Source: a virus. From it: 30,947 nucleotides of DNA. Shown piece after piece: positions 2,123 to 9,933 of the stretch. Location: the IMG/VR virus record IMGVR_UViG_3300035010_000020, positions 1 to 30,947 of that record. One strand, written 5' to 3'. How positions within the stretch are numbered: the first letter of the stretch is position 1; the number at the start of each line of letters is the position of its first letter. Both the position numbers and the translations under genes were made by a program. The notes below the pieces were generated by a model that made no database searches, was not told the origin of the DNA, and saw only the letters and a list, made by a program, of their open reading frames with translations.

Positions 2123-2162
2123 TCCCAAATGGTTTCTGAGCGGTTCGATTCCGCTCCTGGGA
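2123..2162 (+). ncRNA. tRNA-mimic element, copy 1 (T arm plus acceptor-like stem)
   Basis: The outer stem is TCCCA (2123-2127) with TGGGA (2158-2162). The inner hairpin is GAGCGG (2138-2143), loop TTCGATT (2144-2150), CCGCTC (2151-2156). The loop is a canonical tRNA T loop (T54 T55 C56 G57 A58). There is no D arm or anticodon arm; about 10 nt (AATGGTTTCT) replace them. The second pair of the inner stem is A-U here but G-C in the other two copies, a compensatory change that supports an RNA fold. The element lies between a stop codon at 2117-2119 and the transposase ATG at 2170. Confidence 0.6.
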
Positions 2163-2169
2163 ACAATAA

Positions 2170-4278
2170 ATGACAATGAATTTTTTACACAGCGATATTA
2201 TTATACGAAATTCTGGCGACAAACAAACAGTTTGGCTGTCACAGCGTTTAGTAATTGACGTTTGTGGAATGTCAGAAGATTTTTTAAGAACAAAAGCGCG
2301 CCCGCGCTATAAGGCATCTGTTCAAGCTTGCTACCATCACCATAATATACTTCCGGATACAGGAAAAGGTTGGCGTTGGGCGAAAATGGAATCAGGATTT
2401 TATTATGATCTTTCACGTATTCCCAATAGAGCGCCACAAAATTACAGAGAATTGTTTGGTGATGCTACTGAATTGGTAAGAAACTATGAAGATTACATCA
2501 AAGGAAAGCAAAGTTCCAACTTTGAAACGGACTTTAAACGCCATTTAAACAATGTTTACAGATCGTATTTAGAATTTTACACCGATGCAAATGAAATACA
2601 ACGCCTGGCACTTGCTAAAGCGTGCGCGGTAATCGACTTCATACTGGATCACAAAGATTCTTACCCTGGTACAAAGAATAAACTGTACAAGGACCTGGAA
2701 CCTGTTCTGAAAAAGTTAGATCTGCAATATATCCCACATCATCATTTAAGACTTAAAGAGAAAATTGACGAACTATTTGCGACGGAAAGCCTGTCAATTC
2801 CTGATATCATAAAGCTTCCGAGAGCCGGAAACAGTAATTCAATGGTTTTCGCGGATCCTCAACTTGTATCCTGGGCTTTACAGCTTCGATCTATGCCAAA
2901 AAACTACAGTAACGATTACATAATCCGTAAAATAACGGATATGTGTTCGCTCACTGGAAAGCGTGTTCCTTCGCGCCGTTGGTTCGGACAAAACATATTT
3001 GAATTGCCAGGGACAAAATTTCTAACATCAAAAAGATTTGGATCCAGTAGAAAATCGCATATTCATAAATCATATATCCCTACTGAAGGTGCTTTGTATG
3101 CAGGAGACTGTTGGGAAATGGATGCAACCCGTGTTAATATTATCGGTCATTCTGTTGAAATAGTCGACGAAATCACCGGTAAAAAGAAAAAGGTTGAAAA
3201 GTTCCTGATGGTTGTTGCTATCAGAGACGTTCACAGCGGTGATATAGTGGGTTATTCTTTCGATCACTCTGAAAATAGAAGGGTGTACACTGATGCAATC
3301 GCAATGGCTGTTAAAAACACCGGTTATCTACCTTATGAAATTATTACTGACCGTTTCCCTGGCCACAATACTCCGGAAGTTGAGACACTGTTTGCAAGAA
3401 TGGAAGCATTAGGTGTGAAAATCGAAATATCTCACAATGCAAATGACAAAGCAGGAGTTGAAAGGTTCTTCAGAACATTACAGCAGATAACGATGCCGGA
3501 TTCTGATTTCTTTTATGGTGATGGTATTATGTCGCGAAGCTTATCGGCTTTCAGATCACCGGAATACCTTGAAGGAATCAAAAAAGAAAGTAAGAAGGCC
3601 GGATTTGATATGTATGCAGCTGTTGAAGAAAGTACATTCATCATTGAAACCTTCAGAGATACACTATACTCAAAATACAGCCGTAAACATTCAAAAATAA
3701 ATCTTTCACCGCGCCAAATTCATGATCAGTCAGAAAAGCCGCATGTAATTGAGGTTTCAGATGCAACCATATCCATGTTATTCGGACTTAAAAAGAAAAA
3801 CATCCAGATCAGAAACAACGGTCAGATTGAAACTGAAATTTACGGCGTTAAAATGCACTATTTCATTAGCCCGGCATATTATGACGTGATCAAAAATTAT
3901 CACCTGGAATCAGTTGTTCTTTCCTATGATATTGAAGATTTAAGCGTCGTATATCTATGGGAAAATCACGGAATACTATTGAAGTCACTTTGTGAAGCTG
4001 AGTTTTTTGTTCCTGCTAAAACAAAAGGTCCTAATAAAAACCTTCAGCAGATCGGAGTTGCCAAAGCCCGTGAAAAAGCAATTGAATCTTTGAAAAGTAT
4101 CGACTATGAGCAATCAATTGGAGAAGAGAATTATATGCTTGGCAAATACGGTAAAAAAGATATAACAAATACGGCAGATGATTATTATGGTGATCGACCG
4201 GTTAAAAAAGTATCCGGAAGTGATGTACAACCGGATGACTTTGAAAGCGATTACTTAAATGATCGTAATGCTTATTAA
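2170..4278 (+). CDS. MuA-like DDE transposase
   Basis: The 702-aa transposase cuts the phage ends and joins them to target DNA, driving both integration and replicative transposition. The N-terminal part (about 1-110) carries DNA-binding winged-helix-like sequence. The catalytic RNase H fold has Asp318 in CWEMDATRV, Asp394 in IITDRFPGHN and Glu431 in KAGVERFFRTL, giving a DD(36)E spacing, shorter than the 55 residues between Asp336 and Glu392 in Mu A. The following region (about 500-620) would be the beta-barrel, and the acidic tail (SDVQPDDFESDY) would be where MuB contacts it. Mu A is 663 aa, so the length fits. The ATG at 2170 lies 7 nt after the tRNA-like element, without a Shine-Dalgarno sequence. 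Confidence 0.93.
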   Translation: MTMNFLHSDIIIRNSGDKQTVWLSQRLVIDVCGMSEDFLRTKARPRYKASVQACYHHHNILPDTGKGWRWAKMESGFYYDLSRIPNRAPQNYRELFGDATELVRNYEDYIKGKQSSNFETDFKRHLNNVYRSYLEFYTDANEIQRLALAKACAVIDFILDHKDSYPGTKNKLYKDLEPVLKKLDLQYIPHHHLRLKEKIDELFATESLSIPDIIKLPRAGNSNSMVFADPQLVSWALQLRSMPKNYSNDYIIRKITDMCSLTGKRVPSRRWFGQNIFELPGTKFLTSKRFGSSRKSHIHKSYIPTEGALYAGDCWEMDATRVNIIGHSVEIVDEITGKKKKVEKFLMVVAIRDVHSGDIVGYSFDHSENRRVYTDAIAMAVKNTGYLPYEIITDRFPGHNTPEVETLFARMEALGVKIEISHNANDKAGVERFFRTLQQITMPDSDFFYGDGIMSRSLSAFRSPEYLEGIKKESKKAGFDMYAAVEESTFIIETFRDTLYSKYSRKHSKINLSPRQIHDQSEKPHVIEVSDATISMLFGLKKKNIQIRNNGQIETEIYGVKMHYFISPAYYDVIKNYHLESVVLSYDIEDLSVVYLWENHGILLKSLCEAEFFVPAKTKGPNKNLQQIGVAKAREKAIESLKSIDYEQSIGEENYMLGKYGKKDITNTADDYYGDRPVKKVSGSDVQPDDFESDYLNDRNAY

Positions 4279-4293
4279 TAAATAAACCTTGAT

Positions 4294-5214
4294 ATGACAA
4301 ACTTACAAAAAAATGAGATTGTAATTCTCATTGAAAACGAAAAAACTAGACTTGGAAGCTATGCCAAAGTAGCAACAAAGTGCGAAGTGAGTACAGCGAC
4401 GGTTTCACAAATGATAAACCGAAACTGGGACCTGATCAAACCGGAAATGTGGTCAAAGGTTGGGTTTTCACTTGGATTTGATGAAAGTGAGTGGCAGATC
4501 GCCGAAACAATGGGATACAGAAAGGTAGCGAACATTTGCACCGATGCAAAAAACGAAGCGTTTTTCATGATTCTTTCCTCACCGGCCGGTAGAGGTAAAA
4601 CAAAACCATTGGAAAAATACTACGAACTGAACGCTGATAATGAGGTTTTTTATATCAAATGCCGTGAATGGGCAAAACGTGAGTTCCTTGTGGAACTTTG
4701 TAAAAGCCTGGGAATAGATTCTACAAAATATTATGTGCATGTTGACAAACTGGGCGCTAAAGTTTCAGAGTTTTTCAACCAGAGAAAAGGCAGAAAACCT
4801 CTTTTAATCGTAGATGATGCTGGTAAGCTGAGAGATAGCGCAATCAGATGGTTCATTCATCTTTTTGATGAAAACGAAGATAATATGGGCTGCTTACTTG
4901 CAGGTACCGAATATCTGGAGAAAAGAATCCGTGATGGTGTGAGGCTTAAAAAATTGGGATTCGATGAAATTGAAAGCCGTTTCGGTAGAACGTACCTCGG
5001 TCTGATTGGTACAACCCAGAAAGATGCACAGCTGATCTGTTCCGCAAACGGTATTCATAACAATTCCCTTCAGATTCAACTATTCAAAGAATGCAACCCG
5101 CTAAAAAAAATCATTCAGACCCGTGACGGGAACCAATCGATTGAGGTTATTGAAGATATCCGCCGGCTCAAAAGAGCTATTAAAAGAGAAAAATTAAAAC
5201 TCCAATACAACTAA
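4294..5214 (+). CDS. MuB-like AAA+ ATPase, transposition target activator
   Basis: This 306-aa protein should bind target DNA as an ATP-dependent filament and deliver it to the transposase. An N-terminal helix-turn-helix at about 19-45 (LGSYAKVATKCEVSTATVSQ) is followed by an ATPase with Walker A SSPAGRGKT (residues 95-103) and Walker B LLIVDDAG (170-177). MuB has the same order (HTH, then ATPase) and is 312 aa long. It starts 16 nt after the transposase stop, as B follows A in Mu. Confidence 0.9.
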   Translation: MTNLQKNEIVILIENEKTRLGSYAKVATKCEVSTATVSQMINRNWDLIKPEMWSKVGFSLGFDESEWQIAETMGYRKVANICTDAKNEAFFMILSSPAGRGKTKPLEKYYELNADNEVFYIKCREWAKREFLVELCKSLGIDSTKYYVHVDKLGAKVSEFFNQRKGRKPLLIVDDAGKLRDSAIRWFIHLFDENEDNMGCLLAGTEYLEKRIRDGVRLKKLGFDEIESRFGRTYLGLIGTTQKDAQLICSANGIHNNSLQIQLFKECNPLKKIIQTRDGNQSIEVIEDIRRLKRAIKREKLKLQYN

Positions 5215-5215
5215 A

Positions 5216-5455
5216 ATGATTACAAAAGAAACCACAGAAGAGAAGATCATCGAAAGTCTCAAAGAGATTAAAAAGATCATGACAGAACACATTACAGATG
5301 TGCAGGCCTCAATTGCTTTAATGCAATCCAAAACAAAGCCTTTTGAAGATTATCTGCATAGCCTTCCATCAGTTCAGTTAGATTTTCATTACGGAAACTC
5401 ATATGCTGTCAGAACTCTTATAGATGAAATCAAAGCAATACAAGTAAATAATTAA
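5216..5455 (+). CDS. Hypothetical early protein (79 aa)
   Basis: The ATG lies 1 nt after the MuB stop, so it is in the same operon and probably translationally coupled. The N-terminal half (TEEKIIESLKEIKKIMTEH) is a charged amphipathic helix that could form a coiled coil. The second half is not recognised. No catalytic motif, signal peptide or membrane segment is visible. Confidence 0.7.
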   Translation: MITKETTEEKIIESLKEIKKIMTEHITDVQASIALMQSKTKPFEDYLHSLPSVQLDFHYGNSYAVRTLIDEIKAIQVNN

Positions 5456-5461
5456 ACCATT

Positions 5462-5605
5462 ATGAAAACAGTAAAAATTTATTTAAACAAAGAAAAAACA
5501 AGATTTAGAATTGTAAAACCAACTGCTCAATTCAACGGAAACTGGGATGCTCTTGTTTACGATGTAACTAACGGAAATTTTCACTCTTTTAAAGTATATA
5601 AATAA
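5462..5605 (+). CDS. Hypothetical small early protein (47 aa)
   Basis: This short frame starts with ATG at 5462 and encodes MKTVKIYLNKEKTRFRIVKP, ending in FHSFKVYK. It looks like a small beta-rich basic protein. It fills the gap between its neighbours exactly, and its TAA shares an A with the next ATG (TAATG at 5603-5607), which supports it as a translated gene. Function unknown. Confidence 0.6.
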   Translation: MKTVKIYLNKEKTRFRIVKPTAQFNGNWDALVYDVTNGNFHSFKVYK

Positions 5606-6273
5606 TGGAAAACACAATTCAAATACCAGATTTAACACCTGAGCAAATTGAAGCTGTCGCTACAAAGTTCAAAGAAGATAAAAAAAAGGCTAAAGAAAAA
5701 CTGACTGCAGATAAAAAGATTCTGAAGGGTCTTGAAGATAGCGTGGTGGTTGAAAACATCGATTATTTTATTGATGTACGAAAGGATTTAGAATCCCGGA
5801 TCCTGGGACTTTTTGCAAACATGGAACCGATCATTGACCTGAGAGCCGGTATTTATGGCAATAAAAAAAGAGAACAGGATACACACACTTTCACTCTCGA
5901 TGATGGTTCTGCCAGTATAAAAATCGGATGGAACACACGGACAACCTTTAACGGAACTGAAGCTGAAGGTATTGTAAAGATTAAACAATACATGGCAGCC
6001 CTGGCAGGAGAAACGGAAAATGAAAAAATCCTTATGGAGTTTCTGAATATCGCGCTCAAAACAGATATACAAGGGAACTATGATCCAAAAAAAGTAAGGG
6101 AATTAAATAAGATGCGCGACAAGGCTAACAGCGATCTGTTTAATGAAGGAATGGATATCATTATCCAGGGCATGATTGATATCAGAACTTCACGCGTTGT
6201 AACCGGTTACAAAATGGTTGATTTTGGTGAAGGTAATAAAAGACGTGTGAACTTCACTTTTTCAATTGACTGA
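5605..6273 (+). CDS. DUF3164-like phage protein
   Basis: This 222-aa early protein resembles the DUF3164 family common in B3/Mu-like transposable phages. It has a helical charged N-terminus (residues 10-60), a middle segment (IKIGWNTRTTF) and a C-terminal part with NYDPKKVRELNKMRD and ending DFGEGNKRRVNFTFSID. In that family, a stretch on position-by-position coupling to LNP-type motifs is followed by a beta-strand end, as here. Its biochemical role is not established; the gene regularly follows A and B. It overlaps the preceding ORF by one base. Confidence 0.65.
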   Translation: MENTIQIPDLTPEQIEAVATKFKEDKKKAKEKLTADKKILKGLEDSVVVENIDYFIDVRKDLESRILGLFANMEPIIDLRAGIYGNKKREQDTHTFTLDDGSASIKIGWNTRTTFNGTEAEGIVKIKQYMAALAGETENEKILMEFLNIALKTDIQGNYDPKKVRELNKMRDKANSDLFNEGMDIIIQGMIDIRTSRVVTGYKMVDFGEGNKRRVNFTFSID

Positions 6274-6371
6274 TGGAACAAATGTTAATTATAGGGACCT
6301 GCTGCTTTATGGGCGGCGTTCTGGTCGGAGTGATTGTAAGCGCTTTTATTACCTGGAAAATGGTAAAATAA
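6273..6371 (+). CDS. Tiny single-pass membrane protein (32 aa)
   Basis: The ATG overlaps the stop of the DUF3164-like gene (TGATG at 6271-6275). The frame encodes 32 aa with one hydrophobic segment, LIIGTCCFMGGVLVGVIVSA (residues 5-24), and a basic end WKMVK. A small inner-membrane protein is likely. Its early position argues against the lysis holin; roles such as superinfection exclusion are possible but not shown. Its stop is 1 nt before the second tRNA-like element. Confidence 0.55.
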   Translation: MEQMLIIGTCCFMGGVLVGVIVSAFITWKMVK

Positions 6372-6372
6372 A

Positions 6373-6412
6373 TCCCAAATGGTTTCTGGGCGGTTCGATT
6401 CCGCCCCTGGGA
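6373..6412 (+). ncRNA. tRNA-mimic element, copy 2
   Basis: The outer stem is TCCCA (6373-6377) with TGGGA (6408-6412). The inner stem is GGGCGG (6388-6393) with CCGCCC (6401-6406) around loop TTCGATT (6394-6400). It differs from copy 1 at one stem pair (G-C instead of A-U). The following bases GCAAATAAAAT are shared with copy 3. It separates the tiny membrane gene (stop 6369-6371) from the ATPase gene (ATG 6439). Confidence 0.6.
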
Positions 6413-6438
6413 GCAAATAAAATTTTAACACAATAAAT

Positions 6439-7071
6439 ATGAGAGCAATCGGAGTAAAGGCCTTTATAGATAAGACCTTTGATACATTCGCTTTTACAGG
6501 CGAATGGCTTGAAAGTTTCGGAGAGCCGGAAAAGAATTTTAAAATGATTTTGTATGGCGGATCCGGTGAAGGTAAAACTGAATTTACTGTCAGGTTTGCA
6601 AAGTATCTGGCATCGTTTGGTAAGATTTCGTATGTAAGCCCGGAACAAGGTATTTCTAAAAGCCTTCAGGATGCTATAATCCGTAATAACATGGATGAAG
6701 TTGCCGGAAAAGTAATGTTTTTGACTGGCGGATCCTTTGACGAACTGGTGATATACATCAAAAAAAGCAGGTCAAAGGTTATCATTATTGACAGTTTGGA
6801 TTATATGAAGCTTACCGTTGACCAGTTCAAGATCCTGATTGCCAAATTTCCTAAAAAAGCGTTCATCATTATCGCCTGGGCGAAGAATGGATCACCGAAA
6901 AGTCAGCACGCAAAAGATATTGAATTCATGTGTGACATCAAGTCTTTTGTTGAAAGCTTCAGAATTACCTTACCGACTAGCCGATTCGGCGGGAACAAAG
7001 AATTTGTTATCTGGAAAGGTGCCGGAAAGAAGAAAGCCGCTGTTTCAATTCCTTCACTATTTGATAATTAA
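6439..7071 (+). CDS. RecA-fold ATPase, Sak4-like candidate
   Basis: This 210-aa protein is a bare RecA/RadA-type ATPase core. Walker A is YGGSGEGKTEF (about residues 35-45), there is a characteristic YVSPEQGIS loop, and Walker B is KVIIIDSLDYM. Near the C-terminus TSRFGGNKEFVIWKGAGKKK would be the last strands. The size and motifs resemble Sak4-type single-strand annealing proteins (AAA_24), which aid phage recombination. A role in repair or replication-coupled recombination during lytic growth is inferred. The gene starts 26 nt after tRNA-like copy 2. It is distinct from the MuB ATPase. Confidence 0.65.
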   Translation: MRAIGVKAFIDKTFDTFAFTGEWLESFGEPEKNFKMILYGGSGEGKTEFTVRFAKYLASFGKISYVSPEQGISKSLQDAIIRNNMDEVAGKVMFLTGGSFDELVIYIKKSRSKVIIIDSLDYMKLTVDQFKILIAKFPKKAFIIIAWAKNGSPKSQHAKDIEFMCDIKSFVESFRITLPTSRFGGNKEFVIWKGAGKKKAAVSIPSLFDN

Positions 7072-7082
7072 AAAGAGAAAAA

Positions 7083-7391
7083 GTGGCGAAGTTTAAAAAG
7101 AGATTAAAAATCGAAAATGCAGAAATGTTTAAGCTTGAATACTTTGAAGGAGGAGCAGATCTGAAAACTAAAGAATTCAATTCTTATAAGGCATTAGAGC
7201 AATTTCACAGCCGACAGACTGATTTTATGTACATAGATTACCACAGGTATGCATTTATTAACGGAAAGTGGCATCGTTTCATAAAACTACTATCTCCGAT
7301 TGTTTTTGAAAGGGACGTTAATTTCATCAATAAAATATTCTATGAAAATGCTGAAGTTAAAAATCCTCAAAATTCAGATAATGAAGAATGA
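7083..7391 (+). CDS. Hypothetical early protein (102 aa, GTG start)
   Basis: The frame opens with GTG at 7083 (MAKFKKRLKIENAEM), 11 nt after the ATPase stop. The next ATG (7125) would remove a plausible basic N-terminus. The protein is rich in aromatic and charged residues (DFMYIDYHRYAFINGKWHRF), has an acidic tail and has no recognised domain. Spacing and strand place it in the early operon. Confidence 0.65.
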   Translation: MAKFKKRLKIENAEMFKLEYFEGGADLKTKEFNSYKALEQFHSRQTDFMYIDYHRYAFINGKWHRFIKLLSPIVFERDVNFINKIFYENAEVKNPQNSDNEE

Positions 7392-7415
7392 TTTCATCAC
7401 ATAAATAATAATATA

Positions 7416-7613
7416 ATGACACAAAAAGACCAGTTAAAAGTAATGCGTGCCGGGTTCACCATAATCAGAGCAGACGAACATAATCTGCTGCTGAAGTATA
7501 AAGATAGAAACAACCTTCACTGGAAGGTATTAAGGTCGGATTTTTCATCAAAAGCGGCCTTACAAAGAGAGGAAAAAGAGTTTTTAAAACAAAATTTATT
7601 TATAGAAGATTAA
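7416..7613 (+). CDS. Hypothetical early protein (65 aa)
   Basis: This small soluble protein (MTQKDQLKVMRAGFTIIRAD...) has predicted alternating strands and a C-terminal charged helix (SKAALQREEKEFLKQN). No family is recognised. It sits 24 nt after the previous gene and 1 nt before the next, consistent with coupled early expression. Confidence 0.6.
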   Translation: MTQKDQLKVMRAGFTIIRADEHNLLLKYKDRNNLHWKVLRSDFSSKAALQREEKEFLKQNLFIED

Positions 7614-7614
7614 A

Positions 7615-7857
7615 ATGCAAACAAACGATTTAAACAAATTAGTATCTCATTACGAAGATTTGACAAGTGTTTCAATATCCCAAATTCCATCAGGTTTTAT
7701 AGGTAACTCAGCAGATATGAAGGCACTTAAAACCGCTATTGACGAATCTTTAATAAGAAAAATAAGGATTGATGTTCAAAAATATGAAACATTAGGAAAG
7801 TCCCGCCGATGGATTAGACGATGGGTAAAAAGAAAATATAACATTGTAGAATATTAA
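7615..7857 (+). CDS. Hypothetical early protein (80 aa)
   Basis: The ATG lies 1 nt after the previous stop. The C-terminus is strongly basic and aromatic (KSRRWIRRWVKRKYNIVEY), a shape that could bind nucleic acid. The N-terminal part is helical and unremarkable. No family is recognised. Confidence 0.6.
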   Translation: MQTNDLNKLVSHYEDLTSVSISQIPSGFIGNSADMKALKTAIDESLIRKIRIDVQKYETLGKSRRWIRRWVKRKYNIVEY

Positions 7858-7860
7858 ATT

Positions 7861-7899
7861 ATGAGAAAAACAATACCAAAACTTTACCGGATCAACTAA
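7861..7899 (+). CDS. Possible 12-aa leader peptide before tRNA-like copy 3
   Basis: ATG at 7861 follows the preceding stop by 3 nt and opens a 12-codon frame (MRKTIPKLYRIN) that ends in TAA directly against the 5' stem of the third tRNA-like element. It could be a real micro-ORF or the remnant of a longer gene. It is listed because a stop codon lies next to the element in all three copies. Confidence 0.3.
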   Translation: MRKTIPKLYRIN

Positions 7900-7939
7900 T
7901 CCCAAACGGTTTCTGGGCGGTTCGATTCCGCCCCTGGGA
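7900..7939 (+). ncRNA. tRNA-mimic element, copy 3
   Basis: The outer stem is TCCCA (7900-7904) with TGGGA (7935-7939). The inner stem is GGGCGG (7915-7920) with CCGCCC (7928-7933) around loop TTCGATT (7921-7927). It matches copy 2 except for one base in the unpaired connector (AACGG for AATGG). Downstream GCAAATAAAAT is also shared. The next gene starts at 7959. Confidence 0.6.
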
Positions 7940-7958
7940 GCAAATAAAATCACATACA

Positions 7959-8426
7959 ATGAATTTAAGAATTAAAACCCTGAAAAAGAAGATTGAAACA
8001 AAGCATTCAGCTTTTGCAATCAGTCAAACAGTGTATCTGCACACTCGCAGAACTACTAACATCGATGAACTAACGCCTGAAGAGATTGAAACTATTTATA
8101 ATGTGTTCTTTCCGATGGAAATGTCAAACGAACAGGAGCTTGCTCATGCAAAGCTTCAGCAAAGTTTAAAGAATCATCGGTCAAACATCCTGACGATTGC
8201 AAGCAGATTAGGCTTAAAAGAGCCTGATTCTTGGGATAAGTTTAATAATTGGATGCTTACCATGAGCAAGTTTAAAAAACGGCTAAATGACCATAGTCTT
8301 GAAGAATTGAAAGAATTGGAGATCCAGTTTAGAGGTATGGAAAATAATTATGAAAGATCTGCACGCACGCCAGGAACAAAAGCCTGGTATCATAAAAATA
8401 AATTAATACCTCCATCAGCGAATTAA
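7959..8426 (+). CDS. Early phage protein, unassigned (155 aa)
   Basis: This is a helical charged protein. Its C-terminal half has a compact conserved-looking block, WDKFNNWMLTMSKFKKRLND, followed by an amphipathic helix and SARTPGTKAWYHK. Position, after the ATPase genes and among small early genes, is where Mu-like phages carry gp16/GemA-type proteins, but I cannot confirm that family. The ATG at 7959 follows tRNA-like copy 3, and the stop overlaps the next start (TAATG). Confidence 0.7.
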   Translation: MNLRIKTLKKKIETKHSAFAISQTVYLHTRRTTNIDELTPEEIETIYNVFFPMEMSNEQELAHAKLQQSLKNHRSNILTIASRLGLKEPDSWDKFNNWMLTMSKFKKRLNDHSLEELKELEIQFRGMENNYERSARTPGTKAWYHKNKLIPPSAN

Positions 8427-9354: not shown

Positions 9355-9600
9355 ATGAAAATTAACGGATTTGAATATTCTAAAAGTGAGATTTTAGAAG
9401 CATTAAGAAAAAAAGGATACCTAATAATACCATTCAGAACTTACCACGAAAGGTCAATGCACGGAAGTTTATTTATTAAAGAGTGGTTCAACACTGAGTG
9501 TGCTGTAAAAGGTGAAGAGATTCCTTCAGATGAAAATATCTGGACCAATGTTGCAATCAAAGAATTTCAAACGGAATTCATAAAACCTAAACTTACATAA
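9355..9600 (+). CDS. Hypothetical early protein, paralogue A of a tandem pair
   Basis: This 81-aa protein begins MKINGFEYSKSEILEALRKK and is similar to the next gene through its length: NGFxYSKxEhhEAL, a central variable loop, then ECAVK...P.S.ENhW..V....Q...IKPKL. The first part resembles a short helix-turn-helix-like unit. A recent tandem duplication is the simplest explanation. Function unknown. Confidence 0.65.
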   Translation: MKINGFEYSKSEILEALRKKGYLIIPFRTYHERSMHGSLFIKEWFNTECAVKGEEIPSDENIWTNVAIKEFQTEFIKPKLT

Positions 9601-9660
9601 GTACGGAAAACCGTTTTTAAAGTGCCGTACAACAATCTAATTTTACAAAAAAAAATAATC

Positions 9661-9933
9661 ATGCAAGAATTTAAACTATTTGGAGCAACTGTAAAGCACA
9701 AACCTAATACAAAGGTCGAAATGCTGCAATTGAACGGATTTATGTATTCAAAAACTGAAGTAATCGAAGCCCTGAAAGCTCGCGGTTATCAGATTAAAAT
9801 CTGGAAATACCAGGATGATGATCAATACGCTGTTGAATGTGCTGTAAAAGACAATGACGAACCATCAGAAGAGAATATGTGGCACAAAGTGGGAAACAAA
9901 GTTTTACAAATAAGAATTAAACCAAAATTATAG
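9661..9933 (+). CDS. Hypothetical early protein, paralogue B of a tandem pair
   Basis: This 90-aa protein contains the same framework as its upstream neighbour (LNGFMYSKTEVIEALKARGY; YAVECAVKDNDEPSEENMW; IRIKPKL) plus an extra N-terminal 20 residues. I chose the ATG at 9661; a frame extension with GTG at 9622 would add MPYNNLILQKKII, which has no counterpart in the paralogue. Function unknown. Confidence 0.65.
   Translation: MQEFKLFGATVKHKPNTKVEMLQLNGFMYSKTEVIEALKARGYQIKIWKYQDDDQYAVECAVKDNDEPSEENMWHKVGNKVLQIRIKPKL

Follow-up and report, generated by a model that had tools for sequence, protein, structure and literature searches.

A covarying tRNA-like RNA element repeated at gene borders in transposable phages of Bacteroidota

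The window analyzed here, the whole 30,947 nucleotides (nt) of IMG/VR virus record IMGVR_UViG_3300035010_000020, contains a Mu-type transposable prophage that encodes a transposase, a MuB-like ATPase, a portal protein, a terminase and a head protease. It carries three copies of a compact tRNA-like element, all on the + strand and mutually 85-98% identical over 53 nt. An earlier note had described them as 40-nt units with an outer stem TCCCA/TGGGA, a 6-base-pair (bp) inner hairpin and the loop TTCGATT; these features and positions hold for all three copies, and a conserved tail, R-CAA, extends each to 44 nt (2123-2166, 6373-6416 and 7900-7943). Copy 1 reads UCCCA - AAUGGUUUCU - GAGCGG - UUCGAUU - CCGCUC - C - UGGGA - ACAA. 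Copies 2 and 3 share the inner stem GGGCGG/CCGCCC and the tail GCAA, which bears out the reported exchange of an A-U inner pair in copy 1 for G-C in the other two. All three belong to subtype A, the first of three subtypes of the element, and a covariance model built with these copies included scored them at 66.0 bits (copy 1, E 4.6e-12), 65.3 bits (copy 2) and 66.4 bits (copy 3), each far beyond chance at E about 1e-12.

Each copy lies between a stop and a start codon, with the spacings that the earlier note had given (0-3 nt before the stem and 7-26 nt after it). As read from the sequence, copy 1 begins 3 nt past the TAA (2117-2119) of a small open reading frame (ORF) of 42 amino acids (1991-2119), and a second in-frame TAA directly abuts its stem; copy 2 begins 1 nt past the TAA (6369-6371) of a 32-amino-acid ORF (6273-6371), and copy 3 begins 0 nt past the TAA (7897-7899) of a 12-codon ORF (7861-7899). 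An ATG follows the outer stems of copies 1, 2 and 3 after 7, 26 and 19 nt. The genes, like the small ORFs, are on the + strand. Copy 1 precedes the gene for a Mu-type DDE transposase (MuA-like; 2170-4278; phrog_310, 2.8e-24), whose start is more likely the ATG at 2176 because relatives begin MNF or MNL, and the MuB-like transposition ATPase follows at 4294-5214 (phrog_296, 1.3e-28). The first gene past copy 2 encodes a weakly Sak4-like ATPase (6439-7071; phrog_6891, 6.7e-49; phrog_124, 3.6e-3), and the first gene past copy 3 (7959-8426) has no assigned function and has relatives in many element-bearing phages.

Comparison with related copies supports the element as a structured RNA under selection in related phages. 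Among 58 distinct subtype A copies, 98.9% of pair cells were paired, with 147 two-sided changes; shuffles gave 39 +/- 5, and sliding the partner strand gave at most 20. The outer stem alone occurred as TCCCA/TGGGA, TCCTA/TAGGA, TCCGC/GCGGA, TCCAA/TTGGA and TCCTG/CAGGA. Thus, substitutions in relatives, which were checked for damage to the stems, are dominated by compensatory changes, and the suggestion that the copies are remnants of a tRNA-Gly(CCC) fails, since the CCC forms part of a stem that covaries (TCCCA, TCCTA, TCCGC, TCCAA, TCCTG) and not of an anticodon loop. Independently of subtype A, subtype B (loop NNGGCANNC, T loop UUCGAGU) was 95.5% paired, with 61 two-sided changes against 14 +/- 3 in shuffles. 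In subtype C, the outer stem is 7 bp long and the loops are ACGGC and one of the UUUCGACA type. G-U pairs outnumbered A-C pairs 14 to 5, which lends modest support to the sense strand as the RNA.

In order, the element consists of an acceptor-like stem, a D-loop-like loop of 10-13 nt that contains GG, a T arm with the loop UUCGAUU or UUCGAGU, and R-CAA; acceptor and T stems are the only stems, and a D stem, an anticodon arm and a full cloverleaf are absent. By analogy with the tRNA elbow (G18-U55, G19-C56), we infer that the GG contacts the T loop. The GG is constant in the aligned copies, but the search pattern demanded it and it does not covary; the search patterns likewise demanded GGA and RCAA, and invariance at these positions is partly built in. 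A nearest-neighbor model alone folds the window copies into an alternative hairpin, GUUUC/GGGAAC, so the tRNA-like outer stem is established by covariation and not by folding energy. The alternative pairing (GUUU/GARC) is impossible in subtype B, and outer-stem covariation prefers the tRNA-like fold. ARAGORN found no tRNA gene and no transfer-messenger RNA (tmRNA) in the window, no Rfam 15 family lay at the element above the gathering threshold, and the element family had no Rfam match. An Rfam search of the window copies ranked by E-value returned chance-level matches only, the best being 17 nt of a tmRNA T arm (E 0.13).

The number of distinct elements that the covariance-model and pattern searches recovered from phages and prophages of Bacteroidota is well above 100. 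A structural scan yielded 112 distinct elements, and reversed sequence gave 5 unrelated chance matches; most copies scored E about 1e-10 to 1e-13 with the covariance model. By that model 51 viral records, most of them chosen for holding a match, contain 1-6 copies each. We also collected viral contigs through protein similarity to the transposase (53-85% identity) and searched them with the covariance model and a scan whose sole requirement was a T-loop-like heptamer with 5 or more bp closing it; all 10 of 10 carry the element, in 2-5 copies each. Pattern scans returned 61 viral stretches and, across 84,980 species genomes, 29 stretches, nearly all from Bacteroidota, the three exceptions lacking the stems. 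The pattern matches L017, L030 and L038 were dropped for want of stems, and L212 was excluded as a real tRNA. An exact pattern modeled closely on the window copies had no viral match, matches in the INPHARED phages were limited to chance ones such as 35 nt of a tRNA-Met, and PLSDB contained no match to the element. Literature searches, with few subscription papers within reach, found no description of it.

Among the 296 genomes searched in one host family, 25 had a covariance match (E <= 0.001, some weak); a host-encoded element is unlikely, given the 271 genomes without one. An exclusive link to transposition was also rejected, as records with no MuA match, some of them fragments, carry the element. 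Nine such records or loci lack a Mu-type transposase, some encoding an integrase, a DNA primase or a DNA methyltransferase, and comparison of all nine with Mu-type loci revealed no single protein family common to them, several of the records being partial. These results establish firmly that the element forms a compact RNA family in many transposable Bacteroidota phages and prophages and in some non-Mu ones. In a Chitinophagales contig (L019:4580-4624), we observed a fuller, degenerate tRNA-like sequence that matches the model weakly (29 bits). The inner stem tends to be shared within a phage (GCGTGG in L006, CGGCGG in L007 and GRGCGG in the window) and to differ at the same site in relatives, which reflects either homogenization or a shared constraint.

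Similar placement is common in subtype A. Of 98 distinct subtype A copies, 65 begin 0-5 nt past the stop codon that closes a frame of 35 or more codons, compared with 3.9% of random positions, and 96 have within 120 nt downstream an ATG that opens a frame of at least 30 codons, mostly at 10-35 nt. Many subtype B and C copies are instead preceded by an inverted repeat, the two arms of which vary in concert from phage to phage (CACTA/TAGTG, CCATAC/GTATGG and TTAATCA dyads). At L010, L084, L100, L131, L205, L206, L223, L225 and L230, the arms of these dyads are 15-32 nt apart, and the dyads end 1-7 nt before the element and share a recurrent TTAG-like core. Among 33 upstream regions tested, 7 had no such repeat and several others were no better than shuffles. 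We predict that the repeats are promoter- or operator-like; with such a dyad just upstream, the transcript would probably start at or near the subtype B or C element.

Two arrangements are unusual. In L223 (1864-2044) and L213 (369-549), a conserved noncoding stretch of ~180 nt, about 90% alike between the two, lies between two subtype B elements before the transposase gene; it is possibly a separate RNA and has no Rfam match. In a Draconibacterium sequence (L022:3147-3462, minus strand), three tandem elements are separated by sequence without a clear ORF, and only the last is followed closely by a start codon. Elsewhere in the window, the adjacent genes at 9355-9600 and 9622-9933 contain DNA repeats of 71-72% identity and look paralogous, and the translation of 1-390 resembles a host HxlR-type regulator, which would place the left prophage end between about 390 and 860.

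Judged by its sequence, the element copies the ends and the elbow of a host pre-tRNA and dispenses with the D stem and anticodon arm. RNase P is reported to cleave acceptor/T-loop hairpins, to measure 12 bp from the T loop and to pair the substrate RCC with GGU, and other mRNAs and phage RNAs are among its known targets (PMC11143913). The helix from T loop to end spans 12 nt in 47 of 58 subtype A copies, including all those in the window, and 11 nt in the remaining 11. Positions that match the reported RNase P interference sites G19, G53, A58 and G71 (PMC11143913) are invariant or nearly so. Aligned copies have the tail R-CAA and never CCA; in the protein-found loci, which are free of pattern bias, all copies returned by the scan and the model end in ACAA, and two subtype C copies in such loci end in ACAT. 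The element therefore has the trait of an RNase Z substrate, an acceptor/T helix followed by a discriminator with no encoded CCA. In the element-carrying genome of Chryseobacterium herbae, C74 is present in 34 of 35 distinct tRNA genes, CAA is the commonest ending (15 of 35) and CCA occurs in 4 of 35; Dysgonomonas tRNA genes have C74 in 28 of 28, with CAA, CCA, CTA and CTT in 5 each. In the RNase P RNA of C. herbae, a loop at the P15 region reads GGGGUAA and could pair with the R-C of the element, whose third tail base is A, as opposed to the RCC-GGU pairing of RNase P substrates.

These features are consistent with the idea, raised in the earlier note, that host tRNA enzymes process the element. 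The acceptor/T-arm mimicry, the covariation and the stop-start placement speak for that reading, and the cleavage step is argued from anatomy: we judge the chance that host RNase P, RNase Z or both would cut the phage message at the element to be about even. We hold more tentatively the fuller proposal that a dedicated, non-decoding pseudo-pre-tRNA at gene borders may recruit host end-processing and divide the early mRNA into separate messages. The element would then be a minimal host pre-tRNA mimic embedded in phage mRNA, having kept the features that the enzymes read: the 11-12 bp acceptor/T helix, the canonical T loop, the elbow-capable GG loop and the R-C-A-A end. On a polycistronic early mRNA, the cut by host RNase P would fall at the 5' boundary of the element, a few nt past the upstream stop, and RNase Z, together with RNase P or instead of it, would cut after R. 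Each downstream gene block would thereby gain its own 5' end, either tRNA-like or an A-rich leader CAA...AUG. At promoter-proximal sites, where the transcript probably begins at or close to it, the element could matter only by being cleaved on its 3' side or by acting structurally at the 5' end.

Several observations weigh against processing. The helix is 11 and not 12 bp in the 11 of 58 subtype A copies and in all aligned subtype B copies; the first pair of the element is U-A (U1-A72) and N-1 is mostly A, where most host tRNAs have G first and U-1; and A75 is unable to pair with the second G of GGU. Promoter-proximal copies leave little for RNase P to do. The background for the stop distance was random and not intergenic positions, so tight gene packing may account for part of the excess. 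Finally, conservation of the subtype A loop AAYGGUUU and of the end UCC/GGA goes further than RNase P requires, which hints at additional recognition.

This extra conservation suits the main rival, an uncut folded leader, located at the 5' end or between genes, that shields the mRNA against decay or helps translation of the following gene to start, either by way of its tRNA-like elbow or with a host factor, for example a tRNA-binding protein or the ribosome. The ATG, usually 10-35 nt downstream, and the frequent position of subtypes B and C right after a promoter-like inverted repeat, with a predicted transcript start at or near the element, agree with such a role; the unprocessed-tRNA-like tail and the tight stop spacing of internal copies are left unexplained by it, and we consider it unlikely, if still a serious contender. 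Initiation control by sequestration of a Shine-Dalgarno sequence (UCC/GGA) was rejected, as most start codons are about 20 nt downstream of GGA, too great a distance; Bacteroidota are not reliant on Shine-Dalgarno initiation. A transcription terminator was rejected because no T run follows the element. The occurrence of several copies per phage (up to 6), often with a shared stem sequence (as in L006 and L007) and at the borders of gene blocks, would fit binding sites, one per gene block, for a phage-encoded regulator of early expression such as a translational repressor or activator or an antitermination factor. This explanation is improbable: the conserved core is unchanged across host orders, and the available sequence reveals no protein family common to the Mu-type loci and the carriers that lack MuA. 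That the element occurs in phages with little in common and no shared protein family instead indicates a host factor and makes a phage-encoded partner less likely.

Very improbable, in our estimate, is excision of the element as a small tRNA-like RNA that would act on a host tRNA-binding protein as a decoy or sponge, its intergenic location being merely convenient. The three tandem elements of L022 and the pairs flanking the noncoding stretch in L213 and L223 would be easy to understand on that basis, but a start codon follows shortly after nearly every copy, and a stop codon immediately precedes most of the internal copies. It is harder still to credit a mobile or homogenized DNA repeat, or a tRNA-gene remnant, with no RNA function. 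Copies in one phage are often more alike than same-site copies in relatives, as such a repeat would predict; yet both stems covary, which contradicts the single mobile non-functional repeat that the earlier note had allowed for, the bias of G-U over A-C favors a sense RNA, the element is oriented as the following gene, and it sits before the transposase gene over wide divergence. Mobile DNA repeats of the miniature inverted-repeat transposable element or repetitive extragenic palindrome type are ruled out by the compensatory changes in both stems.

The proposed processing has precedents that the element resembles in part. It shares a continuous acceptor/T helix, a T loop and a 3' R-C tail with the model substrates AT1 and pMini, hairpins that are cleaved by Escherichia coli RNase P RNA (PMC11143913); unlike these synthetic hairpins, it is natural, has a GG loop between its stems, ends in RCAA and not RCCA, and lies in mRNA leaders. 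Natural non-tRNA substrates of RNase P include polycistronic operon mRNAs, the precursor of the phage P1/P7 C4 antisense RNA and phage M3 RNA (PMC11143913). As in those cases, a phage or operon transcript contains a tRNA-like structure for which cutting by host RNase P is proposed, whereas in the present family a single covarying element recurs at the gene borders of many phages; it has no match to the Rfam C4 family. The natural substrates known to us are single idiosyncratic structures. In mitochondrial transcripts, functional tRNAs serve as punctuation; the element is likewise a tRNA-like unit that precedes a gene and has a stop codon nearby, but it has no anticodon arm and cannot decode. 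With the tRNA-like domain of tmRNA it shares an acceptor stem, a T arm and a stemless D-loop-like segment, and it differs in being 44 nt long, in having no CCA, tag ORF or pseudoknots, and in occurring in many copies per phage. The tRNA-like structures of plant viruses, also viral mimics of tRNA, are reported RNase P substrates (PMC11143913), but they lie at genome 3' ends and the element in mRNA leaders of DNA phages.

The element family is compact, easily searched and outside Rfam. If it is processed, these phages would be using host RNase P and RNase Z as mRNA punctuation, a bacterial counterpart of mitochondrial tRNA punctuation, and its copies would be natural minimal substrates for the two enzymes. 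Processing would also be informative about the way in which phages produce several messages with independent starts.

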